DNA of 36,882 bases, taken from positions 1-36,882 of IMG/VR virus record IMGVR_UViG_3300042466_002044; one strand, given 5' to 3'. Below, piece after piece: positions 3,495-36,622 of this stretch. The notes below the pieces were generated by a model that worked only from the letters and a program-made list of their open reading frames with translations, was not told the origin of the DNA and did not search any database. The first letter of the stretch is position 1. Each line of letters begins with the position of its first letter. The DNA comes from a virus. The translations under genes and the position numbers were made by a program.

Positions 3495-3787
3495 AATTAT
3501 ATAATTTATTAGATAACCATCTTGAGGGTCTTTTATACGGTAGAGAGAGGTAATCCTTTGTTCCTGTCAAATAACCCCCTACCCCCATAAGCTATTTTTA
3601 TTAGTTATTGAGTAGTTTGTTATCTGAGGAAGTTTGGACTACATCTCTTTACCAATTCTAAATTTCTTTAGTACGTATAGAGTCGAGTATAAACCTTATA
3701 ACTTCTTTCGCAGTGTTCGGAACGAATAAACCGAATAAGAAGTTACGTCCTGCCCCGCATGCCCCCTAAGACCATGCGGCGTTTTTG
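3495..3787 (+). ncRNA. Candidate structured non-coding RNA with pseudoknot, about 290 nt
   Basis: This gene-free interval lies between a promoter (3460-3488) and a terminator-like hairpin. Two long-range helices cross. AGATAAC (3511-3517) pairs with GTTATCT (3619-3625). GGTAGAGAGA (3539-3548) pairs over 10 bp, with one G-U wobble, with TCTCTTTACC (3644-3653). A third, local arm has AACTTCTT (3700-3707) with AAGAAGTT (3737-3744) and an inner TTCGG/CCGAA. The G-U wobble favours the plus strand, since it would be A-C on the minus strand. I found no match to RNase P RNA, tmRNA or another family I know. The ends are inferred from the promoter and terminator. Confidence 0.5.
3755..3787 (+). terminator. 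Intrinsic terminator-like hairpin
   Basis: CCGCATG (3755-3761) pairs with CATGCGG (3773-3779) across an 11-nt loop. After CG there are five Ts. It would end the candidate ncRNA on the plus strand. Confidence 0.5.
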
Positions 3788-3808
3788 TATGTAAAATCTG
3801 CTAAAGAT

Positions 3809-3837
3809 AATTTAGTGTATGAGGGATCTGTTGTCAA
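3809..3837 (-). promoter_or_regulatory. Possible antisense promoter facing the ncRNA
   Basis: Minus strand: TTGACA (3837-3832), 17-nt spacer, TAAATT (3814-3809). It would transcribe leftward, antisense to the candidate ncRNA and toward rnhA. Confidence 0.35.
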
Positions 3838-3845
3838 CAACTTTC

Positions 3846-3853
3846 GATAAGTA
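3846..3853 (+). promoter_or_regulatory. Late-promoter-like box
   Basis: GATAAGTA lies 5 nt before the ATG at 3859. It differs at two positions from the T4 late consensus TATAAATA but has the same spacing as better matches in the window. Confidence 0.3.
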
Positions 3854-3858
3854 TTTTT

Positions 3859-6676: not shown

Positions 6677-7960
6677 ATGACATTAACCAAAAAGAATAAA
6701 CATTATGAGTATGATTTAGCAAAAGATGAATACACTTTTTTCACAGCTAAGAAGTTTGGTTCTGATTTGGTTTTTACAAATAGTTGCATTAATCAAATAA
6801 TAAAATTATATTCAAAGTTCTCCGGAAATTTAACTTCCACAGAAATAGGAAATAAACTAGGAATATCATCCAAAGTAATTCAGCACATTTTGAGAGTCAT
6901 GCACATAACACATGACTCTCTTTCTTTTACAGACGAATATATAAATTCCAAACCCGCAGAAGAAGTTGTTTCTGAAACTTTGGAATTTAAAAAGACGAAA
7001 ATTGTAGAAAAACTTGAAAAGGTAGAATTTAATAAAATTAAAGAAAATGCCGAAAAATGGGAATTATTTGAACATAATTATAAGAATGTAATAGACAGTT
7101 TTCTCCAAAATTGGACACCTCCAAAATATTTTGCTCCTACTCTTAGTAAAGAACAAAAAGAATCAGATCAGGAATTAATTGTTGGTTGTTCGGATTGGCA
7201 TTATGGATTAATTGCAGATGAACGCTATTTATATGCGCAAAAAGAATGGAATATTAGCGCAACTGAAAAAACGGTCGAAGATTATTCAAATCAACTGGTT
7301 TCTCATATAAAAGAAAATTCATACAAAAGAATTACATTGGCATTTCTTGGAGATTTAATTCATGGATTGGACGGATTAACTGATAAAGGTACAAAATTAG
7401 AAGCGCACCCAATTCAAGAAGCACAATTAGAAACTGCAATGAATTCGTCTTTGAAATTTATTCAGAACTTATTAACAGTTCATAATAACGTAAGAGTTTT
7501 GGCAGTTCCCGGAAATCATTCTAGTTTTGGAGATTATTTCTTATTGAAAATGCTTTCGTTAATTTTCCAAAATGATCATCGCATAACTTTTGAAATTACG
7601 AATAAAAGATTTTTAACTTTTAATGTTGGTCAAAACTTGTTCCTTTTGGACCACGGTTATTCAGCAGTTACAAAAAGTCGTTTGCCTGCACCCGGTTCTG
7701 GTCGAGAAAACTATATAAACAATTTGTTTATGACTAAACCAGAACAAATGCAAAATGCAAAAAGATTATACTATATTAGTGCAGATCAGCATCACATGGA
7801 AAGTTCTGAGTTAACTAATGTGGAGCATTATATGTTTTCTACATTAGTTGGAGGATGCCGTTATGCAGATAATTCTGGATATAAATCTCGCCCTCGCCAA
7901 AGTGCATTAGTAGTCACCGAAAAAGGAGTCACGCAATTTTTACATTTCTTCTTTGATTAA
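6677..7960 (+). CDS. Helix-turn-helix plus calcineurin-like metallophosphoesterase
   Basis: A 427-residue protein. Residues about 45-75 read as a helix-turn-helix (LTSTEIGNKLGISSKVIQHI). From about 167 on, the metallophosphoesterase motifs follow in order: CSDWHYG (D173, H175), FLGDLIHG (D226), VPGNHS (N280, H281), a DHG segment and a late ADQHH. This suggests two-metal hydrolysis of a phosphodiester, either nucleic acid or nucleotide. The HTH suggests DNA binding, so a nuclease or repair role is possible but not shown. It has no capsid-targeting peptide, unlike its neighbours. A 10-bp hairpin with a T-rich tract lies inside the gene at the boundary between the two domains. Confidence 0.8.
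   Translation: MTLTKKNKHYEYDLAKDEYTFFTAKKFGSDLVFTNSCINQIIKLYSKFSGNLTSTEIGNKLGISSKVIQHILRVMHITHDSLSFTDEYINSKPAEEVVSETLEFKKTKIVEKLEKVEFNKIKENAEKWELFEHNYKNVIDSFLQNWTPPKYFAPTLSKEQKESDQELIVGCSDWHYGLIADERYLYAQKEWNISATEKTVEDYSNQLVSHIKENSYKRITLAFLGDLIHGLDGLTDKGTKLEAHPIQEAQLETAMNSSLKFIQNLLTVHNNVRVLAVPGNHSSFGDYFLLKMLSLIFQNDHRITFEITNKRFLTFNVGQNLFLLDHGYSAVTKSRLPAPGSGRENYINNLFMTKPEQMQNAKRLYYISADQHHMESSELTNVEHYMFSTLVGGCRYADNSGYKSRPRQSALVVTEKGVTQFLHFFFD
6892..6930 (+). terminator. Hairpin with T-rich tract inside the coding region
   Basis: GAGAGTCATG (6892-6901) pairs perfectly with CATGACTCTC (6911-6920) across a 9-nt loop. TTTCTTTT follows directly. It has the form of an intrinsic terminator within the 6677 gene, just after the HTH-coding part. 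Confidence 0.4.
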
Positions 7961-7961
7961 T

Positions 7962-8513
7962 ATGGAATTCTCGGATCTTTATAAAATGCTTTTAGGAGAA
8001 ATGAGTGAGCCTTGGGATTCTTATGTTAATCCTATAACTACTGTTCAAAATAAATGGCAAGAATATAAACATGATTCTAAACAAATAGTTCCGTTCAAAA
8101 CAATGTATGGGACAGAAATAGATGTATTTTTATATGATAAAGAAAAATTGAAAAGGCTTTTCTTTATAACAAATGACGTTCCGAGAGGAAATGTAGATTT
8201 TTATCTTTTAAAAGATGGCGGAATACAAATATATGAAACAATTAAAGGTGTGCCTTATGAATTTCACATGTCAGATGTTTTTAAAAATTATTTATTATTG
8301 AATTTTTCTTATATATTATCTTCTACTTTTCATACAAAAGAAGGATTCCATTTATACAAAAGATTAGCAAAAGATTCAGATATAAAATTGACTGTAGTGG
8401 ATACTGATAAAGGAACGGAAATAATTTTAAATTCACCAGATGAATTAGATAATTATTATGGTACAGGCAAACGGAATTTTGTTTATAAAATATCTAAAAA
8501 TAAGTTTACATAG
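7962..8513 (+). CDS. Hypothetical protein with capsid-targeting-like N-terminus
   Basis: A 183-residue protein with ATG at 7962, directly after the previous stop (TAATATG). A TTG start 9 nt upstream is possible but breaks the N-terminal pattern. It begins MEFSDLYKMLLGEMSE, close to the M-x-F-x-[DE]-[LF]-Y...LL-E peptide of its neighbours. The rest mixes strands and helices, with a segment GNVDFYLLKDGGIQIYE and no known catalytic motif. I infer an internal-head or injected protein of unknown activity. The next small gene has its own promoter overlapping this gene's 3' end. Confidence 0.65.
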   Translation: MEFSDLYKMLLGEMSEPWDSYVNPITTVQNKWQEYKHDSKQIVPFKTMYGTEIDVFLYDKEKLKRLFFITNDVPRGNVDFYLLKDGGIQIYETIKGVPYEFHMSDVFKNYLLLNFSYILSSTFHTKEGFHLYKRLAKDSDIKLTVVDTDKGTEIILNSPDELDNYYGTGKRNFVYKISKNKFT

Positions 8514-15381: not shown

Positions 15382-16032
15382 ATGAAGAATTATACAGACT
15401 TGAACATAATTTTAGACAGAAGTGGGTCAATGAACAGTATTGCCCATGATATTACCGGAGGAATTAAAACTTTTTTGGAAAAAGAAAAAAATAGCGGAGA
15501 TGAAACAAAAGTATCATTTTACCAATTTGACGATCAATACGAAACAGTATTCACCGACAAGGACATTAAAGATGATATTAATATTTCCATTTCCCCAAGA
15601 GGATCAACTGCATTATTGGATGCAATTGGAAAAACAATGACAATTGTTGGAGAAAAACTGGTAAAAATGGCAGAAGAAGATCGTCCTAATCGGGTATTGT
15701 TTTTAGTTATAACAGATGGATTTGAAAATGCATCCAAAGAATTCTCTGCATCCACTGTTTCGGAAAAAATTAAACATCAACGTGAAAAATATGCATGGGA
15801 TTTTGTTTTCCTTGGTGCAGGAGAAGAAGCAGTGCTAAAGCAACATCAATCTCTTGGTATTACAGGTTCATCTTCTAGAGGTTTTGCCAGAGATTCGACA
15901 AGCATATCAGAAGGTTTTAAATCAGTTTGTGACAGCTATACCTCTTATAAAACATTGGATCGAACAGATGCATCAACATATTGCCGCACTTTTAGCTTTG
16001 ACGAAAAAGAGAATGATAAAGAAGTTGTATGA
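15382..16032 (+). CDS. TerY-like von Willebrand factor A domain protein
   Basis: A 216-residue single-domain vWA protein with an intact MIDAS: D12-RSGSM, the Thr in PRGSTALLDA (about residue 75) and ITDGFEN (about 111). Similar stand-alone vWA proteins (TerY type) accompany tellurite-resistance and phosphorylation modules. It probably binds a protein partner through a divalent metal. It overlaps the following P-loop gene by 4 nt (ATGA), which suggests they act together. This is the second vWA protein in the window. Confidence 0.8.
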   Translation: MKNYTDLNIILDRSGSMNSIAHDITGGIKTFLEKEKNSGDETKVSFYQFDDQYETVFTDKDIKDDINISISPRGSTALLDAIGKTMTIVGEKLVKMAEEDRPNRVLFLVITDGFENASKEFSASTVSEKIKHQREKYAWDFVFLGAGEEAVLKQHQSLGITGSSSRGFARDSTSISEGFKSVCDSYTSYKTLDRTDASTYCRTFSFDEKENDKEVV

Positions 16033-28209: not shown

Positions 28210-28291
28210 TGCTGGGTGTCTGAAGTTGGTCATCAGGGAAGGCTCATAACCTTCTGCGCAAGCCTCGGAGGTTCGAATCCTCCCCCAGCAA
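28210..28291 (+). tRNA. tRNA-Met(CAT) with enlarged variable loop
   Basis: Acceptor TGCTGGG/CCCAGCA, D-stem with one G-T wobble, anticodon stem GAAGG/CCTTC, loop CTCATAA (anticodon CAT) and canonical T-loop TTCGAAT. The variable region is 12 nt, longer than the usual 4-5, and no base separates the D and anticodon stems. CCA is not encoded. Elongator, initiator or Ile2 identity cannot be decided. Confidence 0.85.
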
Positions 28292-28299
28292 CATAATTT

Positions 28300-28500
28300 A
28301 TGAGTATCACAATCCATAAAGCTAACTATAAATCTAAGGTTAATGTTTATGTTGGATTTGGGCGCTACGAATTGACTCCGACCACTGTTTGTCGGGGAGG
28401 CAAAGGGTATTATTCCCAGCGCCCACCTCGCGGTCTGATGGTAAGAAATTGGAAGCATGTAACATGCAAACATTGTCTTAGATATTTTCCGAAAAATTAA
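28300..28500 (+). CDS. Small basic protein with CxxC, 66 aa
   Basis: MSITIHKANYKSKVNVYVGFGRYEL... is very basic, with a C-terminal TCKHCLRYF motif, a possible half zinc site, and one other Cys. The ATG lies 8 nt after the tRNA-Met 3' end, so tRNA processing would leave a nearly leaderless mRNA. The following gene starts 4 nt after its stop. Function unknown; nucleic-acid binding is plausible from charge. Confidence 0.55.
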   Translation: MSITIHKANYKSKVNVYVGFGRYELTPTTVCRGGKGYYSQRPPRGLMVRNWKHVTCKHCLRYFPKN

Positions 28501-28504
28501 AAAT

Positions 28505-28792
28505 ATGTCCGAAGAAAATCCTCAAAATATTATACCAATTGCATTAATTACTAAAGTTTTAGAAGAGAATCACACGGATGATTTGGGTAGTCCTGCGGCG
28601 ATAATTTTGAATAAAAATCAGAATGTGGGATTCTATCCACGGTATGTAGCATCCGCAATGATTGCACTTTATGAAGCATTTCTCGCACATGTTCCAGAAA
28701 ATATTCAGGTTGAATTTGAGCAACAAGTAAAACATAATTTTGATGTTATGTTTGAAGAGAAAGACGATCACATGATAACAATAAAAGTATGA
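28505..28792 (+). CDS. Hypothetical protein, 95 aa, paralog of the 30887 product
   Basis: An acidic 95-residue protein. Its C-terminal half, MIALYEAFLAHVPENIQVEF..., aligns without gaps to RALFDAFSVLVPEAKDSF... in the product at 30887-31210: an ALxxAF helix, VPE turn, then an amphipathic helix. It overlaps the next gene by 4 nt. I recognise no domain. Confidence 0.65.
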   Translation: MSEENPQNIIPIALITKVLEENHTDDLGSPAAIILNKNQNVGFYPRYVASAMIALYEAFLAHVPENIQVEFEQQVKHNFDVMFEEKDDHMITIKV

Positions 28793-29289
28793 ACGAATCA
28801 ATCATAGAAAATTTAAAAAATATTTACCACTATATTTGTACGACCAGACATACAGGTTTGGGACTCAGGCAAAGTATTGCTGCATTCAGTGATAAAAAAC
28901 CTATAATTATAGTTCCAACAGAATTGCATAAAATAGCATATAGGGAGACACATCGGAATGTAGATGTAATATCATTACATGAAGTTAGTACCGCATTAAG
29001 AGGACGCAATCAACCAATAATCTTCGATACAGACACCGTAGGGGAGATTATATCAATGATATTAACGGATTTACATATTTGTATAAGTTCTACAGAAGTA
29101 TTGCTTTCCCGAGAACTATCTGATTGGGAAAATATAGTGAAATTTATAGAATCTGATGGATTTAAATTAATGAATGAATCAGTTAAACTGGCAATAAACG
29201 AAAAGAAATCAGAAATCGGCGGAAATATCACACGTTTAGAAAAACATTTACAATTTCTTGTAGAAAAAATTGCAAAAAAGAATAAGTAG
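28789..29289 (+). CDS. Hypothetical protein, 166 aa
   Basis: Starts MNESIIENLKNIYHYICTTRHTGLGL, with a KKPIIIVPTE strand and a NQPIIFDTDTVGEII segment suggesting an alpha/beta fold, then a long charged C-terminal helix. No canonical Walker motif is present. It overlaps the previous gene by 4 nt (GTATGA), so the two are probably coupled. Function unknown. Confidence 0.65.
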   Translation: MNESIIENLKNIYHYICTTRHTGLGLRQSIAAFSDKKPIIIVPTELHKIAYRETHRNVDVISLHEVSTALRGRNQPIIFDTDTVGEIISMILTDLHICISSTEVLLSRELSDWENIVKFIESDGFKLMNESVKLAINEKKSEIGGNITRLEKHLQFLVEKIAKKNK

Positions 29290-29299
29290 AAATAACAAC

Positions 29300-29518
29300 A
29301 TGGAAAATCTTCCAACATACAAGTTTTCGACAAAAGAAAAGACAGCATCTGAAATATTTTCAATGCCAACTCATTTCCGTAGTCATTTTATGGCGGAAGC
29401 TCGACCTAGTTTTGCAGGAGCAGAGGCAAGTGGTTGGCGCAAAAGTCAGAGTTTTATTCAAACAGAAAATACAACTGGAAAAAATAAAAATTTTGACACA
29501 ACCGTAAAAAATGCGTAG
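29300..29518 (+). CDS. Hypothetical protein, 72 aa
   Basis: MENLPTYKFSTKEKTASEIFSMP... is polar, Ser/Thr/Asn-rich and probably partly disordered, with a SGWRKSQSF segment. ATG at 29300 lies 10 nt after the previous stop; a longer frame starting at 29270 would overlap the neighbour. It is followed by an intrinsic terminator at 29550. Function unknown. Confidence 0.55.
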   Translation: MENLPTYKFSTKEKTASEIFSMPTHFRSHFMAEARPSFAGAEASGWRKSQSFIQTENTTGKNKNFDTTVKNA

Positions 29519-29549
29519 GTAAAGAACTGTATTAATTTTGTACTTTCAG

Positions 29550-29580
29550 AGCCTCGCCCAAAAAGCGGGGCTTTAATTTT
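29550..29580 (+). terminator. Intrinsic terminator
   Basis: AGCCTCGC (29550-29557) pairs with GCGGGGCT (29565-29572), one G-U wobble, loop CCAAAAA, followed by TTTAATTTT. It ends the 28210-29518 transcription unit. Confidence 0.8.
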
Positions 29581-29665
29581 ATCAGAAATAGTCGTTGATC
29601 AAAACCGAGAATCAACTTAAAAGGCCAAAAATGAGCTATAATCATTTAATCTGTGAAACAGGGTT

Positions 29666-30169
29666 ATGAATAATAACCGTAACAATCGTATGAAAAATTA
29701 TAAAAAAGAAATAGAAAAGTTATTAGAACAATCAACTGATTGGAAATGCACGGTTTGTAAAAACAGAACTGCCAGAGTTGTTCACTCTTTTATTCTGAAT
29801 AGAAAAATTGAGAAAATAAGTGATTGCACAATTGTTTGTAAATCTTGTAAAGAAGAAATAGATTTTGCGATAGAAAACCAATACATTTCCCAAAAAGTTT
29901 CCGAATTAGAAGAAATAAAAGAAAAAACATTGAGTCTTAGAAATGATTCTTATCAGTTTTGGAAAATCAAGTTTTTGGAAAAAAGAAGTTTGACAGAAGA
30001 AGAATTAGGGTGTATAGAAGGCTTAACAAAAGCAAGAAAAAGGAAACTTTCAAGTGCTTTGAAAAAAGATTTTCAAAGAAAAGATTTGTATAAAATGAAA
30101 TTCAATGAAAAAGAAATTCAAAAAATGAAAAAGATGCTAATCACATTTCAATATAGAACCATAGTCTAA
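29666..30169 (+). CDS. Zinc-binding (degenerate HNH-like) protein
   Basis: A 167-residue very basic protein. Residues about 23-55 hold CTVCKNRTARVVHSF and, 20 residues on, IVCKSCKEEID. Two CxxC pairs flank a His, like the treble-clef zinc core of HNH nucleases, but the catalytic HH and Asn are not evident. The C-terminal half is Lys-rich and helical. Its last 15 bases, including TAA, lie inside the tRNA-Asp gene. A DNA- or RNA-binding role near the tRNA cluster is plausible; nuclease activity is doubtful. A weak TATAAT is seen at 29637. Confidence 0.65.
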   Translation: MNNNRNNRMKNYKKEIEKLLEQSTDWKCTVCKNRTARVVHSFILNRKIEKISDCTIVCKSCKEEIDFAIENQYISQKVSELEEIKEKTLSLRNDSYQFWKIKFLEKRSLTEEELGCIEGLTKARKRKLSSALKKDFQRKDLYKMKFNEKEIQKMKKMLITFQYRTIV

Positions 30170-30230
30170 CTGGCAAGACGCAACCCTGTCACGGTTGAAG
30201 ATGCGGATTCGAATTCCGTTGGTTCTGCCA
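30155..30230 (+). tRNA. tRNA-Asp(GTC)
   Basis: Acceptor AGAACCA/TGGTTCT, D-stem GTCT/AGAC, anticodon arm CAACC-CTGTCAC-GGTTG, T-loop TTCGAAT, encoded CCA. The 5' part overlaps the 3' end of the upstream ORF. Confidence 0.92.
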
Positions 30231-30233
30231 TTT

Positions 30234-30326
30234 GGGTAGTTTAGTGGACAAGCGTGCCACGTTTGCTTGGAAAGCAAAATAGACTATAATAAAATATAGT
30301 CTGGGGAGCATGTCCTCAATTACCCG
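30234..30326 (+). tRNA. tRNA-Ser(GGA) with non-canonical D- and T-loops
   Basis: Acceptor GGGTAGT/ATTACCC, D-stem GTGG/CCAC, anticodon arm TTTGC-TTGGAAA-GCAAA, and a class II variable arm of 7 bp (GACTATA/TATAGTC). The T-stem is TGGGG/CCTCA but its loop is AGCATGT rather than TTCRANY. The D-loop lacks the GG that normally contacts the T-loop. Possibly functional with an altered elbow. Confidence 0.75.
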
Positions 30327-30330
30327 CCCT

Positions 30331-30468
30331 TAATCAACAATCGCTGCAAAAATGAGGTGCTGCATAAACCCAAATCCTCTAACAGTTCAAGATGTATTTG
30401 TTTTGGTTTATGACAAATGCCGTTGATTAGGCATCACTCATTAGAACTAGCTTACTCTAATGGAGTGA
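30331..30468 (+). ncRNA. Structured spacer element between tRNA-Ser and tRNA-Thr
   Basis: About 140 nt without an ORF but with nested helices. TAATCAAC (30331-30338) pairs with GTTGATTA (30422-30429), enclosing ATAAACC (30364-30370)/GGTTTAT (30405-30411). Next follows an 11-bp hairpin, CACTCATTAGA (30435-30445) with the 30456-30467 strand and one bulged G. It may be a small RNA, a processing signal or a remnant tRNA-like element. Strand follows its neighbours. Confidence 0.4.
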
Positions 30469-30473
30469 ACATT

Positions 30474-30545
30474 GCCTGTGTGGCTGAATGGTTAAGCACC
30501 TCTCTTGTAAAGAGGATTACGGGGGTTCGATCCCCTCCACAGGCT
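30474..30545 (+). tRNA. tRNA-Thr(TGT)
   Basis: Acceptor GCCTGTG/CACAGGC, anticodon arm CCTCT-CTTGTAA-AGAGG, T-arm GGGGG-TTCGATC-CCCTC. No encoded CCA. Confidence 0.92.
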
Positions 30546-30551
30546 CATTAA

Positions 30552-30619
30552 TTTTTAGTCGAATAAGAAGTTCAACCTCCGGGAGGAGGGAAGTAAAGGT
30601 GCAAGTCCTTTATAAAAAT
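30552..30619 (+). tRNA. tRNA-like gene with contracted anticodon arm
   Basis: An AT-only acceptor stem (TTTTTA/TAAAAA core), a short GAA/TTC D-stem, a perfect T-arm AAAGG-TGCAAGT-CCTTT and a 5-nt variable loop are recognisable. The anticodon arm folds best as CCTCC (30576-30580)/GGAGG (30585-30589) closed by GGGA, a GNRA-type tetraloop, leaving no 7-nt anticodon loop. A poorer 7-nt alternative would read CGG (Pro). Either a decayed tRNA or a tRNA-mimic. Confidence 0.45.
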
Positions 30620-30626
30620 TATATAT

Positions 30627-30700
30627 ACGCATCAATGCCAAGGCTGGCGAATTGGACTCCAAATCCGATTGGCCCGATTCGATTTCGGGGGTGCGTGCCA
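30627..30700 (+). tRNA. tRNA-Trp(CCA)
   Basis: Acceptor ACGCATC/GGTGCGT, D-stem TGCC/GGCG, anticodon loop CTCCAAA (anticodon CCA) on a 5-6-bp stem, T-arm CCCGA-TTCGATT-TCGGG, encoded CCA. Confidence 0.9.
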
Positions 30701-30709
30701 CCAAAATTG

Positions 30710-30737
30710 TTGACAATCTCCGGATATGTGATAAAAT
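30710..30737 (+). promoter_or_regulatory. Promoter inside the tRNA cluster
   Basis: TTGACA (30710-30715), 16-nt spacer ending TGA (extended -10), TAAAAT (30732-30737), immediately before the 14-bp tandem repeat and tRNA-Gly. Confidence 0.7.
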
Positions 30738-30792
30738 ACGACTATAAAAATACGACTATAAAAATACGACTATAAAAATACGACTATAAAAA
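30737..30792 (+). repeat. Four perfect 14-bp tandem repeats
   Basis: TACGACTATAAAAA four times, without a mismatch, filling the space between the -10 box and the first base of tRNA-Gly. Each unit contains TATAAA, so each could add a -10-like element, and the copy number may vary. Confidence 0.95.
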
Positions 30793-30793
30793 T

Positions 30794-30867
30794 GCGTGAT
30801 TAGTTTAGTGGCAGAACATGACATTGCCAATGTCGAAACGAGAGTTCGATTCTCTCATCACGCACCA
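30794..30867 (+). tRNA. tRNA-Gly(GCC)
   Basis: Acceptor GCGTGAT/ATCACGC, D-stem GTTT/GAAC, anticodon arm TGACA-TTGCCAA-TGTCG, T-arm GAGAG-TTCGATT-CTCTC, encoded CCA. Confidence 0.92.
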
Positions 30868-30886
30868 TCTAATAATTAACGGAAAT

Positions 30887-31210
30887 ATGAAACATCAAAT
30901 AGAAATCATCGGACAAATTGGAAATATGGAAAGTACATCAATAGATGGTAAAACGGAAGATCGTGGTGTAGTAAGATTGGAGACAGTTCCATTATCACTT
31001 GAGTTTAATGATGATAGTGGGAAAATTGATCCTCTTCGTCTTGCTTTTTATGCAGCAGGAACAATTAGGGCATTATTTGATGCTTTTTCAGTTTTAGTTC
31101 CTGAAGCAAAAGATTCTTTTAAAGAAAATTTTAAAAAATATTTCGACGAGTCCTTGGAAAAAGGTGAGGTTAAAATTTATAACAAAGATGAATATGAAAT
31201 CATTGAATAA
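30887..31210 (+). CDS. Hypothetical protein, 107 aa, paralog of the 28505 product
   Basis: ATG at 30887 is the first start outside tRNA-Gly; the frame is open further upstream but would run through the tRNA. MKHQIEIIGQIGNMESTS... has a beta-rich N-terminus, then a helical part RALFDAFSVLVPEAKDSFKE that matches the C-terminal half of the 28505 product. It begins 19 nt after the tRNA CCA. Function unknown. Confidence 0.65.
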   Translation: MKHQIEIIGQIGNMESTSIDGKTEDRGVVRLETVPLSLEFNDDSGKIDPLRLAFYAAGTIRALFDAFSVLVPEAKDSFKENFKKYFDESLEKGEVKIYNKDEYEIIE

Positions 31211-31232
31211 TACTAATAATTAATAATATAAT

Positions 31233-31442
31233 ATGTACAATACTCTTAAAAATAACATTAATAATGCAGTAATATTGTGGTTTGATTCATATAGAAGAAA
31301 ATCGTATCATGTAATATTTAAATGGTTATATAATATATTAGTAGGATTGCCGGGAACAGCATTAATTATTGTTAATTTACCATTTGTAGCAGTTTTGGTA
31401 TTTGTACGGATGGATTGTATCAGGTATACTGTATTTCATTGA
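31233..31442 (+). CDS. Small membrane protein, apparently frameshifted
   Basis: In frame the protein has 69 residues with a membrane segment NILVGLPGTALIIVNLPFVAVLVFV, then a short unlike tail ending RYTVFH. In the +1 frame the sequence from about 31390 stays open to TAA at 31486-31488 and encodes a natural-looking continuation, GWIVSGILYFIDKSIAFVL plus a basic tail. That second stop overlaps the next ATG (TAATG), the usual junction here. Either a mutation or sequencing indel around 31400-31415 or a programmed +1 frameshift would explain this. A similar membrane protein lies at 31677. Confidence 0.6.
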   Translation: MYNTLKNNINNAVILWFDSYRRKSYHVIFKWLYNILVGLPGTALIIVNLPFVAVLVFVRMDCIRYTVFH

Positions 31443-31487
31443 TAAGTCTATAGCTTTTGTTTTGAAGAATATAAAAAACGATAAATA

Positions 31488-31664
31488 ATGAAAACGTTTC
31501 AAGAACTCTTAAAAGAAGAGGAGGAAAAGGCACTTCAACTATTAAAAACGAGAAAAACATTTAAACAAATTTTAGAAGAGCAATTAGCAGAAGTTTTTCA
31601 AAAAGAGTTTCCAGACGCTACAATAGATTCTTCTAAAATAAAAGTAACAGCATCTAAAAGATAA
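31488..31664 (+). CDS. Small Glu/Lys-rich protein with T4 internal-protein-like N-terminus, 58 aa
   Basis: MKTFQELLKEEEEKALQLLK... runs from ATG 31488 to TAA 31664. The first ten residues are strikingly like the T4 internal-head-protein targeting peptide MKTYQEFIAE (from memory), with a possible cut after LKE. The remainder is a charged amphipathic helix and short tail. ATG overlaps the +1-frame stop of the upstream membrane gene. It may be a packaged peptide. Confidence 0.6.
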   Translation: MKTFQELLKEEEEKALQLLKTRKTFKQILEEQLAEVFQKEFPDATIDSSKIKVTASKR

Positions 31665-31676
31665 CCATCAAACAAT

Positions 31677-31907
31677 ATGGAAAAATTAAAAATAATTAAA
31701 GATGGATTAGTAGCGATTTCTTATTTGCTCCTAAACCTAGTGATCTTTGTACCAACATTATTGTTACTAGTGTTAATAGTCAACATTGGTAAACTAATTG
31801 CACGGGCAGGAAGTGTAATAGAAGGAATTGGCGAAAATATAGAGTATATATTCAAAAAATTAGCGATGAAGGTGATTAGATGCGGAGATAAAATATTTTT
31901 AGAATAA
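31677..31907 (+). CDS. Small membrane protein, 76 aa
   Basis: MEKLKIIKDGLVAISYLLLNLVI... has one long hydrophobic stretch (about 10-38), then an amphipathic helix (GSVIEGIGENIEYIFKKLA) and a basic end. Topology resembles the (frameshifted) membrane protein at 31233, so they may be duplicates. It starts 12 nt after the previous stop and ends 4 nt before tRNA-Ala. Function unknown; an inner-membrane host-takeover or superinfection role is speculation. Confidence 0.6.
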   Translation: MEKLKIIKDGLVAISYLLLNLVIFVPTLLLLVLIVNIGKLIARAGSVIEGIGENIEYIFKKLAMKVIRCGDKIFLE

Positions 31908-31911
31908 ACAT

Positions 31912-31991
31912 GGGGGTTGGGACTGCTTGGAGTGGTCGCCTGTTTTGCAAACAGGATATTCAGGTGGGATCGTAACCCACAACCTCCACCA
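31912..31991 (+). tRNA. tRNA-Ala(TGC)
   Basis: Acceptor GGGGGTT/AACCTCC, D-stem GACT/GGTC, anticodon arm CCTGT-TTTGCAA-ACAGG, T-stem GTGGG/CCCAC, encoded CCA. The variable loop is 8 nt and the T-loop is ATCGTAA, not the usual TTCRANY. Confidence 0.85.
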
Positions 31992-31997
31992 TTATTA

Positions 31998-32005
31998 TAT
32001 AAATA
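31998..32005 (+). promoter_or_regulatory. Perfect T4-type late promoter box
   Basis: TATAAATA, identical to the T4 late consensus, 5 nt before the ATG at 32011 and 6 nt after the tRNA-Ala CCA. Confidence 0.6.
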
Positions 32006-32010
32006 ATAGC

Positions 32011-32457
32011 ATGGAATTACCTCAGATATATGAAAACATGCTAATAGAATATTGTTCTGGAAATTTAATAAATGAATCTTTTATAGGAGATTATATCGAA
32101 AATACGGATGAATTTGATATGGAACTGGTAGAAGAAATTAAATTAGATGAATATACTCTATTTTTAGCCAAGGATGAGGGTAATAATTATTGGTTGGGGT
32201 TAACCTCTGGTGAACGTCTTTGTTTTAATCCGGAACAGCAAAATAGGAAATATCCATGTTTAGCAGACCATATTAAAATAGGTGTAGCAAAACAACTTCT
32301 AGTTGTGTTAAAAACGTGGACAAAAAAATACGGATATATTTTAGTAGGTTCTTTTGATGTTAAAAAGTTAAAAAGTTATTATAAAATATTGAAATTTGCG
32401 AAATTTGATGTTACGACGTTTAGAAATGGACCTTTTGAGTGGTATATGATAAGATGA
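32011..32457 (+). CDS. Hypothetical protein, 148 aa
   Basis: ATG at 32011 follows the late-type box; an upstream in-frame start would run through tRNA-Ala. MELPQIYENMLIEYCSGNL... has an acidic N-terminal half and a strand-helix-strand C-terminus (YILVGSFDVKKLKSYYKIL...FEWYMIR) faintly like the end of a GNAT acetyltransferase. The acetyl-CoA loop is not evident, so I assign no function. It ends 8 nt before tRNA-Gln. Confidence 0.6.
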   Translation: MELPQIYENMLIEYCSGNLINESFIGDYIENTDEFDMELVEEIKLDEYTLFLAKDEGNNYWLGLTSGERLCFNPEQQNRKYPCLADHIKIGVAKQLLVVLKTWTKKYGYILVGSFDVKKLKSYYKILKFAKFDVTTFRNGPFEWYMIR

Positions 32458-32465
32458 AAGTATAT

Positions 32466-32536
32466 CTAGGCGTAGCTTAATGGGAGAGCGGTAGTTTGAA
32501 TACAGGTTGTGGGGTTAATTCCCATCGTCTAGACCA
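32466..32536 (+). tRNA. Compact tRNA-Gln(TTG)
   Basis: Acceptor CTAGGCG/CGTCTAG, D-stem GCTT/GAGC, T-stem GTGGG/CCCAT with loop GTTAATT, encoded CCA. The anticodon arm is weak: three pairs (GTA/TAC) close loop GTTTGAA, giving anticodon TTG. The gene is only 71 nt with CCA, about 5 shorter than usual, so identity is tentative. Confidence 0.6.
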
Positions 32537-32539
32537 TTT

Positions 32540-32613
32540 GCTTCTATAGTTCAGTGGTAGAACAGTTGTTTCATAAGCAACATGAAAAGGTTCGATTCCT
32601 TTTAGAAGCACCA
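32540..32613 (+). tRNA. tRNA-Met(CAT), second copy
   Basis: Acceptor GCTTCTA/TAGAAGC, D-stem GTTC/GAAC, anticodon arm GTTGT-TTCATAA-GCAAC, T-arm AAAGG-TTCGATT-CCTTT, encoded CCA. It could be elongator Met or Ile2 with lysidine. Confidence 0.9.
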
Positions 32614-32629
32614 AATACACATTTTCTTT

Positions 32630-32657
32630 TTGACAAAAGAACTTTACAGTGTATAGT
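32630..32657 (+). promoter_or_regulatory. Promoter for tRNA-Pro and following ORFs
   Basis: TTGACA (32630-32635), 16-nt spacer ending GTG, TATAGT (32652-32657), 10 nt before the tRNA at 32668. Confidence 0.7.
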
Positions 32658-32667
32658 ATAAAAATAT

Positions 32668-32742
32668 CAGGATGTGGCAGACAAGCAATGCGCTACGTTT
32701 GGGGCGTAGAATATGTGGGAGCGTTACCCACCATCTTGACCA
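32668..32742 (+). tRNA. tRNA-Pro(TGG) with non-canonical T-loop
   Basis: Acceptor CAGGATG/CATCTTG, D-stem GCA/TGC, anticodon arm CTACG-TTTGGGG-CGTAG, T-stem GTGGG/CCCAC, encoded CCA. The T-loop is AGCGTTA and the D-loop has no GG. Confidence 0.85.
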
Positions 32743-32745
32743 TTT

Positions 32746-32949
32746 ATGTTAATTAATAAAGATGAACATGCGAGATTTTTAGACCAGAAATATCAAGACG
32801 GTTTTAAAAATTTAAAGCCGGAAGATGTTTGTCCACCATGTCCTTCTTGTAATGGAAAAATGGAACCATGGGATCTTTGGTTGGTAACAGGCGCAAATTG
32901 CACTGTTTGTGGATGGAGTATGACAGAAGGAACTGGTTGTCTCCTTTAA
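32746..32949 (+). CDS. Small zinc-ribbon-like protein, 67 aa
   Basis: MLINKDEHARFLDQKYQDG... carries two Cys pairs, CPPCPSC and CTVCGW, about 20 residues apart, a likely zinc ribbon, with a C-terminal GTGCLL. The ATG is only 3 nt after the CCA end of tRNA-Pro, so tRNA 3' processing would directly expose it. Possibly nucleic-acid or protein binding; no specific function known. Confidence 0.65.
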   Translation: MLINKDEHARFLDQKYQDGFKNLKPEDVCPPCPSCNGKMEPWDLWLVTGANCTVCGWSMTEGTGCLL

Positions 32950-32964
32950 AAATTATAATAACGT

Positions 32965-33159
32965 ATGGCAGACGAATCAACAATCCCTGAAAATACAAAA
33001 CCTTCTAAGCGTTTTGTGCAGCGGGATGCATATATTTGCAAGTATTGTGAGGGAGTATATGCAGATGAACCAGTTTCTTCTTGTGATTGTCTTGAACATC
33101 TTGGTAAAAATCCTCCCCACTTTATCAAAGGAAAAATTGAATATATTTTAACAAATTAA
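32965..33159 (+). CDS. Small Cys-containing protein, 64 aa
   Basis: MADESTIPENTKPSKRFVQRD... has CKYC and, 15 residues later, CDC-LEH, which together could bind one zinc ion. It starts 15 nt after the previous stop and ends 2 nt before thyX. The antisense frame across it is a shadow. Function unknown. Confidence 0.6.
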   Translation: MADESTIPENTKPSKRFVQRDAYICKYCEGVYADEPVSSCDCLEHLGKNPPHFIKGKIEYILTN

Positions 33160-33161
33160 AA

Positions 33162-33947
33162 ATGAAAGCACGTTTAATCACTAAAACCGCAGGAGTTGCA
33201 GAATATACAGACAAAAGTATTGACGAAATTACAGTAGGAATTGCAAGACTCAGCAGTTCCAGAGATGTAAATGAATTGTTTAATGAACCTCATAAACTTC
33301 TTCGGCATTGTCTAAGAGAAGGACATTGGAGTGTTTTTGCAATGGTTAATCTTGGAATTGAGATTGAAACGTCCCGTGCCATTGGACGAGAACTGTTGAG
33401 ACATTGGAGCTTGCAACCTCAAGAATTGAGTCAACGATATAAAATTGTTAATGAATATGAAGAAATCGAATTGCGAGAACAATGCTCTAATAATCGTCAA
33501 AGTTCAACAAATTTGGTAGATCCAATTTTGTTTGTTTCTGATAATGACTTTTTCACCGATAAAACCGGAAAGGCAAGTGAAAAAGTCAAGGAACATATGA
33601 AAAATAGTTTTGAACTATATCAGGAACTAATAAACAATAACGTTGCCCGAGAAACAGCAAGATTCGTCTTGCCAGAAGCAACAACTACAAAAATTATTTT
33701 TAATGGTAAACTTCGTGATTGGATTACCACTCTGAATAAAAGGTTGTATAAAACAGCGCAAAAAGAATGCCGGGAAGTGGCAGAAGTTATCCGGGATATT
33801 CTTATCCAAGAATGTCCAATAGTTTCTAAAATGCTTTGGAATTTTGAAGATGCATATCATATTGAAATTTTGGAAAGGTTGATTCTTGATCGTTGGGGAG
33901 TTTATGATTTGGTAAAAAATAATAACTTTAAAAAGGTAGTTTTGTAA
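33162..33947 (+). CDS. thyX: FAD-dependent thymidylate synthase with variant ThyX motif
   Basis: A 261-residue ThyX protein: it makes dTMP from dUMP using methylenetetrahydrofolate, FAD and NADPH for phage DNA synthesis. The central helix reads GRELLRHWSLQPQELSQRY (residues 75-93), matching the ThyX signature RHR(X)7S except that the second Arg is W82 (RHW-x7-S90). SQRY is retained, and an FVLPEAT-type segment (LVP/LPE helix) and C-terminal Arg/Ser region are present. Length is in the family range. It begins 2 nt after the previous gene, with no visible Shine-Dalgarno. Family call is secure; activity with the Trp substitution is untested. Confidence 0.9.
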   Translation: MKARLITKTAGVAEYTDKSIDEITVGIARLSSSRDVNELFNEPHKLLRHCLREGHWSVFAMVNLGIEIETSRAIGRELLRHWSLQPQELSQRYKIVNEYEEIELREQCSNNRQSSTNLVDPILFVSDNDFFTDKTGKASEKVKEHMKNSFELYQELINNNVARETARFVLPEATTTKIIFNGKLRDWITTLNKRLYKTAQKECREVAEVIRDILIQECPIVSKMLWNFEDAYHIEILERLILDRWGVYDLVKNNNFKKVVL

Positions 33948-33950
33948 GTT

Positions 33951-34256
33951 ATGCGAAGATACTATCTTAAAAGATTAATAGGAGAAGGAAATATTCCAAT
34001 TGAAGAAGATATGATAGCATATCTTTTGGATGAATGTGTGTTAATGATAACAGATGAAAATGATTCAATTAGTTTAACCATTAATGTAAGTGATTATTTT
34101 TACCCCGGAGCAGACGATGAAAAATTTCCAATGAATGATATTCCAAAAATATATGAACTTTATAAAGAAAAACAGTATAAGGGTATATGTGAATATGTAG
34201 CAGAAAAAAGAAAAATCGAAAATATTTCATGGAAAGATAAACTAAAATCGAATTAA
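33951..34256 (+). CDS. Hypothetical protein, 101 aa
   Basis: MRRYYLKRLIGEGNIPIEEDMIAYLLDE... is acidic in the middle with NVSDYFYPGADDEKFPMNDIPKIYELY, which resembles small phage proteins with a surface-exposed acidic patch. It has no recognised domain. It lies 3 nt after thyX and 4 nt before the CoaB/aldolase gene, so it belongs to that transcription unit. Confidence 0.6.
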   Translation: MRRYYLKRLIGEGNIPIEEDMIAYLLDECVLMITDENDSISLTINVSDYFYPGADDEKFPMNDIPKIYELYKEKQYKGICEYVAEKRKIENISWKDKLKSN

Positions 34257-34260
34257 AAGT

Positions 34261-35502
34261 ATGAAAAAGAAAATTTATGTTGTTGGTGGCGGAACGGTAG
34301 CTCATAGCAGTTGCCATTTAGGCTTGTGTGCCCCTGCATTCGGCTCAACCGCCCGAACGCTAATGAGTCTTGTTGAAAAGTTAGCTCCAGAAATGGATGC
34401 AGAACTGGTTTTAACGTCCATGGCAGGAGGAAATCACAGCTTGCAAAGTCCCAAAGATTTGGCTAAACTTGCAGAAAACATTGTAAATGACTTTTCTACA
34501 AAAATTGTTTTTTGGAGTCCAGCAGTTTGCGATTTTGAAATGATTGTAGATGCAGATAATTTGGATAAAAATGCTAATCCAAAATATAGCGGAAGATTAG
34601 ATTCTAAAAAAGAATATAATGCAAAACTAATTCCTAATACGGAAAAAGTAGTTGATCTTTTTAGAAAAACTCGAAAAGATATTACTCTTGTTGCATTCAA
34701 GACAACTTGTGGAGCAACAGAAGATGAGCAATATCTGGCGGGATTGAATTTGCTTAAAAAAGCAAGTGCTAATCTTGTACTGGCAAATGATACACTTCAC
34801 CGTCGAAACATGATTATTGTTCCAGAAGAAGCACGTTATTGTGTTACTAATAATCGAAAAGAAGTTTTGGAAGAATTGGTAAAAATTGCACTACTAAGAA
34901 GTACATTAACTTTTACAAGATCAACGGTTGTTGCAGGAAATCCTTGTGAATGGGATTCCCTTCTTGTTCCGGATGCATTGCGAGAAGTTGTAAATTATTG
35001 TGTGGAAAAAGGAGCATATAAAAAATTCCGAGGAGTAACCGCAGGACATTTTGCAGTAAAACTAAGCGAAACTAAATTTTTGTCTTCTCGTCGTAAAACT
35101 GATTTGGGAGATATTAAAAATGTTGGATTAGTTCTAGTTGAAACTGACGGTCCTGATAGAGTAATTGCATATGGCAGTAAACCAAGCGTGGGTGGACAAA
35201 GTCAAAGAATTGTATTTTCTGATCATCCGGATTTTGACAGTATTGTTCATTTTCATTGTCCAAAAAAAGAAAACTCACTGGTTCCCACAATTTCTCAAAA
35301 AGAATATGAATGTGGAAGTCACGAATGTGGGAAAAATACTTCAAATGGATTGAAATCTTTTGGTAGGCTAAAAGCAGTATTTCTGGATAATCATGGTCCA
35401 AATGTAGTGTTTAACAGTAGTGATCCCGGTATTGCAGAAGAAGTAAAGACGTTTATTGAAAATAACTTTGATTTGTCACAAAAAACTGGAGGATTGGTAT
35501 AA
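34261..35502 (+). CDS. Fusion of CoaB-like (DFP) and class II aldolase-like domains
   Basis: A 413-residue protein. Residues 1-215 resemble the CoaB half of the Dfp/CoaBC family: a glycine-rich Rossmann start YVVGGGTVAH, FWSPAVCDFE, KLIPNTEKVVDLFRK, LVAFKTT, and a LVLAND strand. Residues about 235-410 look like a class II aldolase/MtnB domain: GVTAGHFAVKL, DLGDI, the metal-binding IVHFHCP (H330, H332), and LDNHGPNV (H378). The usual PSSE catalytic Glu segment reads PSVGG, so lyase activity is doubtful. A role in pantothenate, sugar-phosphate or other cofactor metabolism is possible. The downstream 52-aa gene overlaps (TAATG). Confidence 0.7.
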   Translation: MKKKIYVVGGGTVAHSSCHLGLCAPAFGSTARTLMSLVEKLAPEMDAELVLTSMAGGNHSLQSPKDLAKLAENIVNDFSTKIVFWSPAVCDFEMIVDADNLDKNANPKYSGRLDSKKEYNAKLIPNTEKVVDLFRKTRKDITLVAFKTTCGATEDEQYLAGLNLLKKASANLVLANDTLHRRNMIIVPEEARYCVTNNRKEVLEELVKIALLRSTLTFTRSTVVAGNPCEWDSLLVPDALREVVNYCVEKGAYKKFRGVTAGHFAVKLSETKFLSSRRKTDLGDIKNVGLVLVETDGPDRVIAYGSKPSVGGQSQRIVFSDHPDFDSIVHFHCPKKENSLVPTISQKEYECGSHECGKNTSNGLKSFGRLKAVFLDNHGPNVVFNSSDPGIAEEVKTFIENNFDLSQKTGGLV

Positions 35503-35660
35503 TGAAATTGACATTTAGTATTCCTGAATTTTTAACTAATAGTTATTTTTGGATTGGAGCAGGAGCAGCAACATTGTTTTGGGTTATATCAACATATATA
35601 GTATTATATGTAATAGGAGATTGTTTAGCTGATATATTTTCAAGTTGGTATAAACGTTGA
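35502..35660 (+). CDS. Small single-pass membrane protein, 52 aa
   Basis: MKLTFSIPEFLTNSYFWIGAG... runs from ATG 35502 (sharing A with the upstream TAA) to TGA 35660. One long hydrophobic helix covers about residues 16-40, followed by DCLADIFSSWYKR. GGAGG 9 nt upstream of ATG is one of the few plausible ribosome-binding sites. Function unknown. Confidence 0.6.
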   Translation: MKLTFSIPEFLTNSYFWIGAGAATLFWVISTYIVLYVIGDCLADIFSSWYKR

Positions 35661-35691
35661 ATATAAAAAGTAGAAAAACTCCTAAAACATG

Positions 35692-35719
35692 TTGACAACA
35701 GAAAACTTTGTGGTAAAGT
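35692..35719 (+). promoter_or_regulatory. Promoter for second tRNA cluster
   Basis: TTGACA (35692-35697), 16-nt spacer ending TGG (extended -10), TAAAGT (35714-35719), 17 nt before tRNA-Glu. Confidence 0.7.
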
Positions 35720-35736
35720 AGAAGAAGAAAAGACAG

Positions 35737-35812
35737 GTCGCTATAGTGAAACGGTTATCACGCAAGACTTTCAATCTTGAGTTGAGGGGTTCGATTCCCC
35801 CTAGCGATGCCA
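35737..35812 (+). tRNA. tRNA-Glu(TTC)
   Basis: Acceptor GTCGCTA/TAGCGAT, D-stem GTGA/TCAC, anticodon arm CAAGA-CTTTCAA-TCTTG, canonical T-loop TTCGATT, encoded CCA. Confidence 0.93.
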
Positions 35813-35827
35813 TTTAAATAAAAATAT

Positions 35828-35902
35828 GCCTCTGTAATTCAACGGTAGAATAACAGACTTTTAATCTGAAGGCTATGGGTTCGAATCCCATCGGAGGCAC
35901 CA
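35828..35902 (+). tRNA. tRNA-Lys(TTT)
   Basis: Acceptor GCCTCTG/CGGAGGC, D-stem ATTC/GAAT, anticodon loop CTTTTAA, T-arm ATGGG-TTCGAAT-CCCAT, encoded CCA. One A-A mismatch at the base of the anticodon stem. Confidence 0.92.
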
Positions 35903-35909
35903 TTTTAGT

Positions 35910-35977
35910 TTATTAGTAGAATAATTGGTAATTCCTCTCATTGGGAGAGCATACAGGTTCAAATCCTGTCTAATAAC
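35910..35977 (+). tRNA. tRNA-like gene with short anticodon arm
   Basis: Acceptor TTATTAG/CTAATAA, D-arm GAAT/ATTC, T-arm ACAGG-TTCAAAT-CCTGT are all perfect. The anticodon arm folds best as CTCTC (35935-35939)/GAGAG (35945-35949) with a 5-nt loop ATTGG. A 7-nt loop ATTGGGA (anticodon TGG, Pro) leaves only 3 pairs. No CCA is encoded. Shares a 19-nt D-arm block with tRNA-Ile at 36399. Confidence 0.55.
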
Positions 35978-35988
35978 ATAATTTTTAT

Positions 35989-36063
35989 TCCCAAGTACCA
36001 TAATGGCAATGGGATTGCCTGTTACGCAATAATATGTAGGTTCGACCCCTACCTTGGGAGCCA
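35989..36063 (+). tRNA. tRNA-Asn(GTT)
   Basis: Acceptor TCCCAAG/CTTGGGA, D-stem CCAT/ATGG, anticodon arm ATTGC-CTGTTAC-GCAAT, T-loop TTCGACC, encoded CCA. Confidence 0.92.
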
Positions 36064-36070
36064 TTAAATA

Positions 36071-36078
36071 TATAAACA
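36071..36078 (+). promoter_or_regulatory. Late-promoter-like box
   Basis: TATAAACA, one mismatch from TATAAATA, 4 nt before the ATG at 36083 and 7 nt after tRNA-Asn. Confidence 0.35.
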
Positions 36079-36082
36079 AAAT

Positions 36083-36379
36083 ATGAAAGTTTATAAAACA
36101 ACATTCGATAACTTAGAAAGTTCGATATTACCATCTTCATCAATAATTAGCGCAATTGAAGGATGGCTAGTAGAATGGAAAAAAGAATTTCAACGAAGAC
36201 CAAGTAATCCCACTATTACAGTAGGTTTAAAATTACTAGATTATATAGAATCAGACAGAAAAGTATCAAACCTGAGCACATATCATCAATATCTAGTATT
36301 AAGTTTATATGATCTATCTATTAGAATAATTCCATCTTGGGAAATAGAATTGTATACAATGGAATTGTCTTTAGAATAA
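36083..36379 (+). CDS. Hypothetical protein, 98 aa
   Basis: MKVYKTTFDNLESSILPSSSIISAIEGWLVEWKKEF... is predicted mostly helical and soluble, with conserved-looking aromatic residues and no recognised motif. It starts 19 nt after tRNA-Asn and ends 19 nt before the next tRNA. Function unknown. Confidence 0.6.
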   Translation: MKVYKTTFDNLESSILPSSSIISAIEGWLVEWKKEFQRRPSNPTITVGLKLLDYIESDRKVSNLSTYHQYLVLSLYDLSIRIIPSWEIELYTMELSLE

Positions 36380-36398
36380 CAAAATAATTTTCACATTT

Positions 36399-36478
36399 GG
36401 GTTGGTAGAATAATTGGTAATTCGCACACATTTATATTGTAGTGTGAGATGTAGGTTCAAATCCTACCTGACCCTCCA
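36399..36478 (+). tRNA. tRNA-Ile(TAT), expanded anticodon arm
   Basis: Acceptor GGGTTGG/CTGACCC, D-arm GAAT/ATTC, T-arm GTAGG-TTCAAAT-CCTAC, encoded CCA. The anticodon stem CACACA pairs with TGT-a-GTG with a bulged A, closing loop TTTATAT, anticodon TAT (Ile, AUA). If the bulge is not allowed, the loop would be 12 nt. Identity is tentative. Confidence 0.65.
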
Positions 36479-36490
36479 TTTTCAACTTTT

Positions 36491-36622
36491 CGGCTAGTAA
36501 TTTAATTGGTAAAATATCCATCATAATAAAAATATTATACATTATATTATTTTAAAAATTTAATTTGCTAATTTTTAAAAATATACCGGAAAATAAAGGT
36601 TCGAATCCTTTCTAGACGACAA
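36491..36622 (+). tRNA. Degenerate or interrupted tRNA-like gene
   Basis: Acceptor CGGCTAG/CTAGACG (one G-A mismatch), D-arm ATTT/AAAT with loop AATTGGTA and T-arm AAAGG-TTCGAAT-CCTTT are clear. Between D- and T-arms lie about 79 nt instead of about 23. A possible loop ATCATAA (anticodon CAT) at 36520-36526 sits on TCC/GGA, with about 61 AT-rich nt inserted, including an 11-bp hairpin (36550-36560 with 36570-36580). This is a pseudogene or an intron-like insertion. Confidence 0.5.

Follow-up and report, generated by a model that had tools for sequence, protein, structure and literature searches.

Three tRNA-shaped genes with altered anticodon arms in a phage tRNA array, and interrupted tRNA genes of large phages

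Three genes at the right end of a phage tRNA array, named here by their first positions (35910, 36399 and 36491), are tRNA-shaped beyond chance and have unusual anticodon arms. Genes 35910 and 36491 look like worn-out gene copies and not like a new kind of intron or tRNA. The best explanation, which is probably correct, is that these two genes have decayed and that 36399 is a marginal working tRNA.

Anatomy of the three genes

The window (G000), i.e., the whole stretch of DNA analysed, is a phage fragment from a virus record and comprises 36,882 bases. ARAGORN detects 12 tRNA genes in it, all on the plus strand, from 28210 to 36478. The sub-array at the right end has the order Glu-Lys-35910-Asn-ORF-36399-36491 (Table 1). 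A promoter-like TTGACA-16-TAAAGT with TG is located at 35692-35719, 5' of tRNA-Glu; such sites are present in numbers not above chance.

Table 1. Coordinates of the tRNA genes and their features in the window, its relatives and other phage contigs.
Feature	Position	Strand	Basis or remark
tRNA-Glu(UUC), normal, first in sub-array	35737..35812	+	ARAGORN
tRNA-Lys(UUU), normal	35828..35902	+	ARAGORN; ends 7 nt before gene 35910
tRNA-shaped gene 35910, 68 nt	35910..35977	+	full cloverleaf by folding; geometric scan
Contracted anticodon arm of 35910, CTCTC-ATTGG-GAGAG (5-bp stem, 5-nt loop)	35935..35949	+	sequence, folding
tRNA-Asn(GUU)	35989..36063	+	ARAGORN; relatives carry a different tRNA-Asn and several hundred nt extra here
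Candidate tRNA-Ile(UAU), gene 36399, 80 nt, CCA encoded	36399..36478	+	ARAGORN, tRNA-Ile(tat); Rfam, 50.6 bits; geometric scan
Interrupted tRNA-shaped gene 36491	36491..36619	+	geometric scan; permissive ARAGORN draws 36491-36620
TCC (36517-36519) ... GGA (36588-36590) in 36491, 68 nt enclosed	36517..36590	+	sequence
11-bp AT hairpin in 36491, TTTTAAAAATT/AATTTTTAAAA, 9-nt loop	36550-36560/36570-36580	+	folding
Weakened Gln-like (TTG) tRNA gene	32466..32536	+	40.6 bits; non-standard/degraded T loop, short anticodon stem
Damaged tRNA gene, 58 nt, no anticodon arm	L009:7007-7064; G003:26967-27024; G004:72312-72369		
Damaged tRNA-Tyr(GTA), long variable arm	L009:11186-11271		apparently no D arm
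Damaged tRNA gene	L009:6185-6236		5' acceptor lost
CAGCAA-class loci	L089:905-1026; L153:9001-9127, 15789-15910; L154:9001-9121		
CAGCAA-class loci, contigs	L105, L071, L069, L079, L053, L063, L068, L140, L173, L180, L217		

A geometric scan relying on the acceptor, T8, the D arm and the T arm only, with the anticodon arm ignored, returns 35910, 36399 and 36491 together with seven other tRNA genes of the window, the background in shuffled windows being 0.05 hits per strand. The anatomy outlined in the sequence-only reading is right, because this anticodon-blind scan returns all three genes and almost nothing in shuffles; sequence and folding agree with it. Each gene has a 7-bp acceptor (with one mismatch in 36491), a D arm and a TTCRANN T loop. 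The T loops are TTCAAAT in 35910 and 36399 and TTCGAAT in 36491, matching the TTC-A/G-AAT pattern noticed before. Assembly error was rejected, since the same genes occur in several IMG/VR contigs of different samples.

In 35910, the acceptor (TTATTAG/CTAATAA, 7/7), the D stem (GAAT/ATTC, 4/4) and the T stem (ACAGG/CCTGT, 5/5) are fully paired; CCA is not encoded (C is followed by AT). The 5-nt anticodon loop ascribed to this gene is indeed ATTGG within the 68-nt cloverleaf. Alternatively, a 4-bp stem with the 7-nt loop CATTGGG could be drawn, giving the anticodon TTG but with A at position 33. The standard elongator anticodon arm (5-bp stem, 7-nt loop, U33 and purine 37) is lacking in 35910. 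The gene is listed in the window neither by default ARAGORN nor by a fast-filter Rfam scan; in an identical contig (G001:43887-43954), it reaches 41.7 bits with the Rfam tRNA model.

The anticodon arm of 36399 (36425-36444) has the bulged 6-bp stem seen in the sequence-only reading, CACACA/TGT(A)GTG, with a single bulged A (A36441). Its 7-nt loop TTTATAT (36431-36437), carrying U33, UAU and A37, is that of a standard elongator tRNA; the stem deviates (6 bp and the bulge). The remaining arms (acceptor, D and T) are intact. Codon use of the phage is 24.4 AUA, 43.6 AUU and 8.5 AUC per 1000, AUA constituting about a third of the Ile codons. The gene may still be useful, because it is the only UAU tRNA among the examined parts of the relatives and because of this share of AUA; judged by its sequence, it may be a marginal yet plausibly working tRNA-Ile(UAU). 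It is improbable that all three genes, including 36399, are dead pseudogenes. The indel in the anticodon arm of 36399 between relatives and the G-U pairs in its acceptor are consistent with that, but the normal loop, the CCA end, the Rfam score and an anticodon useful in an AUA-rich phage argue against it.

In 36491, the acceptor CGGCTAG/CTAGACG (36491-36497/36612-36618) forms 6 of 7 pairs. The D arm (36500-36515) has the stem ATTT/AAAT consisting of A-T pairs only, the T arm (36595-36611) has the stem AAAGG/CCTTT, and the 3' end is A36619 followed by CAA, without CCA. The relaxed ARAGORN search recommended in the sequence-only reading draws the gene when run permissively. The gap between the D and T arms is 79 nt versus the usual 22-23, an excess of about 56-57 nt; measured against an ordinary anticodon arm, about 56-61 AT-rich nucleotides are extra. 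The sole possible ordinary loop, ATCATAA (CAU), is located right after TCC on a 3-bp stem, and in the usual geometry no standard elongator anticodon arm is present. The insertion of this length and its 11-bp hairpin, both noticed earlier, are present; the hairpin is no stronger than in shuffled sequences, and the insert folds at the level of shuffles (z -1.4; -1.1 for the insert of a relative). The hairpin was rejected as a selected structure, its strength being at chance for the composition. The insert was also rejected as a repeated or mobile element, since blastn against the window and its relatives gives short AT-rich chance matches only.

The identical 19-nt D-arm block GTAGAATAATTGGTAATTC attributed to the first two genes is present at 35916-35934 and again at 36405-36423. 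It is no proof of duplication, because contigs L010 and L011, for which no other link to the window is seen, contain the same 19 nt inside a tRNA-Gln whose variable arm is long. The acceptors and T stems differ among the three genes, and 36491 has in common with the other two only a generic D-arm core. Duplication, as originally suggested, is thus not established, and on sequence grounds the three genes are not clearly recent duplicates. A comparison of 35910 and 36399 with 50,697 phage records yields generic T-arm matches only. The L010 (488-668) and L011 (737-917) genes themselves are tandem tRNA-Gln genes (UUG, CUG). Their acceptor has an eighth pair and their variable arm is long and class-II-like, both unusual for glutamine tRNA.

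Interrupted tRNA genes and the insert of gene 36491

As a yardstick, IMG/VR was scanned for a common D arm and a T arm 46-76 nt apart. At least 119 stretches matched, and among the matches listed a paired acceptor and T stem were found in 58 of 120. Removal of a single block restores a perfect anticodon arm (5-bp stem, U33, purine 37) in 27 of the 62 distinct interrupted genes listed, the expectation with shuffled inserts being 0.95; with Watson-Crick pairs only, 22 of the 62 listed genes are restored versus 0.2 expected.

One class of tRNA genes in large phages carries a structured insert of about 40-50 nt in the 5' strand of the anticodon stem (in some genes in the loop). The insert consists of a hairpin followed by CAGCAA, its removal restores a perfect tRNA in sequence, and it is common to tRNA-Lys, Ile, Asn, Thr, Glu and other genes. 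The hairpin displays compensatory change at 6 of 6 pairs in 18 sequences, which were chosen partly by the motif. Judged from these patterns, the insert is possibly a common small intron. The class occurs in cultured phages (Serratia phage BF, Erwinia phages, Pectobacterium phage CBB and Cronobacter phage GAP32), in which the genes are annotated simply as tRNA, e.g., the 127-nt tRNA-Lys of GAP32. A second scan, by motif, revealed further cases in large phage contigs; among its five candidate cellular matches, one is an archaeal gene whose intron occupies the usual position; the rest are mostly unconvincing.

Other interrupted genes were observed as well. In L050 (2400-2448), L125, L067 and L075, another family has the core GGTGAAGGACC / GGTAAAGGACC and an AAGCC or ATGCC end between the D and T arms; perfect single-block excision was found in none of these four. 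In L038 (3870-4021) and L057 (4190-4347), the tRNA insert itself holds a T-arm-like GGTTCGAATCC stretch, resembling the 'tRNA inside a tRNA intron' described in Lak phages.

Gene 36491 resembles the CAGCAA class in being tRNA-shaped, with some 40-57 extra nt between the D and T arms and a hairpin inside. It differs in having neither a covarying hairpin nor the CAGCAA motif nor a perfect anticodon arm after removal. It is therefore very unlikely that its insert is a small intron, spliced out to leave a tRNA with the anticodon CAU, even though the 79-nt gap is near the range of intron-like phage tRNA genes, ATCATAA straight after TCC resembles a CAU loop and, in one lineage of relatives, pairing at the hairpin end is preserved by a T to C change together with an inserted G. 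Whereas 27 of the 62 listed interrupted genes could be restored, no single-block removal in the usual geometry yields a perfect anticodon arm in 36491, a relaxed decomposition is also negative, and the CAU loop has a 3-bp stem only. After every possible single-block removal, ARAGORN gives 16 hits for 36491 (19 for its relative). Shuffled inserts give 24-153 hits under the same procedure, and two intron-like genes give 195 and 351. The insert model R1 (hairpin and CAGCAA) has no match at 36491-36620 at E<=10 with filters off. The unusual small intron proposed earlier is consequently unsupported, block removal restoring a tRNA no oftener than in shuffled inserts.

The enzymes of splicing or repair carry little weight in this respect. 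No RtcB ligase was found in the four phage records searched, and T4-type RNA ligase was not found by a search whose controls were also silent; such absences are weak evidence, because the records are fragments. A scan for the 36491 D arm combined with a T arm at a distance of 55-85 nt, a spacing that excludes uninterrupted genes, returns near relatives only, all with the insert. The catalytic core of a group I intron comprises some 200 nt or more. A group I intron in 36491 was rejected, as the extra sequence is just 56-61 nt and the Rfam scan of the window gives no match to a group I family.

Alternatively, 36491 could work as a tRNA without splicing, the insert forming an additional AT-rich arm beside the anticodon arm. 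The tRNA body unchanged among relatives would agree with this, but the usual geometry gives no U33 anticodon stem-loop with at least 3 bp, and the 3-bp CAU option remains only if the stem may shrink, which makes the proposal extremely unlikely.

Introns in phage tRNA genes were first reported, and termed 'enigmatic', in Lak megaphages (Devoto et al. 2019, PMC6784885). As in 36491, the extra sequence lies inside a phage tRNA gene and is identical or nearly so between near relatives (PMC6784885). Unlike the Lak introns, no excision from 36491 gives an ordinary tRNA.

Conservation, decay and maintained function

The 19-nt block was found in ten IMG/VR stretches. Two contigs are identical to the window in this region, and L003-L006 and L009 are 92-99% alike in pieces. 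All available relatives keep 35910, 36399 and 36491. Among them, 35910 differs by one base in the variable region, and in one lineage a U-G pair in the acceptor of 36399 is replaced by C-G and its anticodon arm has gained one T. The tRNA body of 36491 has 0 changes, and its insert has 2 substitutions and 1 inserted G in the same lineage. Frequent indels among close relatives, suggested earlier as a sign of plain pseudogenes, give a mixed picture: in relatives 92-99% alike there are only two, of which one affects the 36399 anticodon arm and the other the 36491 insert.

The coding flanks diverge by about 9%, and 36399-36621 has 3 substitutions in 223 nt, a difference that could reflect constraint. 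Between the window and G004, the Glu-Lys-35910 block is almost unchanged, spacers included. L006 and L009 side alternately with different lineages, and the pattern of L004, L006 and L009 is that of recombination nearby. Because the region is mosaic and recombining, low divergence here is not readable as selection or as proof of function; constraint argued from the window versus G004 divergence was rejected, even the spacers being almost unchanged and 36399-36621 lying in a mosaic region.

Turnover of the array is high, with Asn, Pro, Ser and Thr genes varying from one relative to another. Where the window has its tRNA-Asn, L006 (~3630-4230) and L004/L005 (~7805-8405) contain several hundred nt beside a different tRNA-Asn. 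This extra stretch has an apparent open frame, a candidate HNH-type endonuclease, which may drive gene replacement in the array. In a more distant relative (L160, 51% protein identity), no tRNA genes were found in the part examined.

Damage is not confined to the anticodon arm. The 58-nt gene of L009, G003 and G004 is intact in its acceptor, its D and T arms and its CCA, and has a D-to-T gap of 9 nt; other genes of L009 and the Gln-like gene of the window are damaged elsewhere (Table 1). An intact tRNA-Gln(UUG) is present elsewhere in relatives, and ARAGORN finds two CAU tRNAs in the window; 35910 and 36491 look spare for these reasons. Lesions in every arm, together with the spare copies, make decay the best reading of 35910 and 36491. 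The impression of damage in the anticodon arm only arises because the search partly favoured genes with the other arms intact. Certain observations stand against decay: 35910 has complete pairing in its acceptor, D and T arms, beyond what an old pseudogene would be expected to show, and the odd genes are kept in all available relatives with few changes. Of the three suggestions originally made for the odd genes (decay, escape from anticodon nucleases and a small intron), decay fits 35910 and 36491 best, and the intron did not hold for 36491.

Further tRNA genes with unusual structure were noted. The T loop normally has U54 and A58; A54 and U58 are present instead in three different tRNAs of these phages, the window genes at 31912-31991 (Ala) and 32668-32742 (Pro) and the gene at L009:8676-8749 (Gln), whose T loops are ATCGTAA or AGCGTTA. 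At L009:10466-10558, a 93-nt tRNA called Glu has a scrambled D/anticodon region.

Genes 35910 and 36491 could instead be maintained non-decoding tRNA-like RNAs, acting as decoys for host anticodon nucleases or tRNA-binding factors, or as nuclease-proof tRNAs; the functional part would then lie outside the anticodon arm. In both genes the acceptor and the D and T arms are intact, the tRNA bodies are nearly unchanged between relatives, and a role of phage tRNAs against tRNA-cutting defences is known or has been proposed (PMC10264068; PMC11555353). Phage tRNAs with altered anticodon loops are predicted to escape host nucleases (van den Berg et al. 2023, PMC10264068), and the window genes are similar in having a changed anticodon region. 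However, the published loops still decode, while 35910 and 36491 lack an ordinary loop; the scan detecting the genes requires the very arms in question, so their intactness is partly selected by the method; and the same arrays hold genes damaged in other arms. This alternative is rather unlikely. That 35910, 36491 and the 58-nt gene without an anticodon arm found in relatives are kept on purpose as non-decoding mimics, e.g., baits for tRNA-cutting or tRNA-binding defence proteins, is considered quite unlikely.

According to the decay reading, the three genes would belong to a phage tRNA array that changes fast, and would have reached different stages of wear. Gene 35910, perhaps once a tRNA-Gln(UUG), would have lost about 4-5 nt of the anticodon and variable region. 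In 36491, possibly once a CAU tRNA, AT-rich filler of 56-61 nt would have split the anticodon arm. The two genes are probably still transcribed as part of the array, and their RNAs would be partly folded but unable to decode normally.

Tracing tRNA gene loss and interruption in phages

The array is similar to ordinary degraded phage tRNA arrays in being dense and one-stranded, with high turnover and a mixture of intact and damaged genes. It differs from them in that the damage is unusually easy to read, with a shortened, bulged or replaced anticodon arm beside other arms that are intact. The window documents gradual tRNA gene loss in a phage array and warns that a near-perfect cloverleaf may be without a usable decoding arm.

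The larger yield of the follow-up, above the window's own genes, is the CAGCAA class. Because it occurs in cultured phages, removal of its insert is open to laboratory tests. Among large phages, interrupted tRNA genes are no rare oddities, and many of them, of different tRNA types, carry one structured insert at one place of the anticodon arm.
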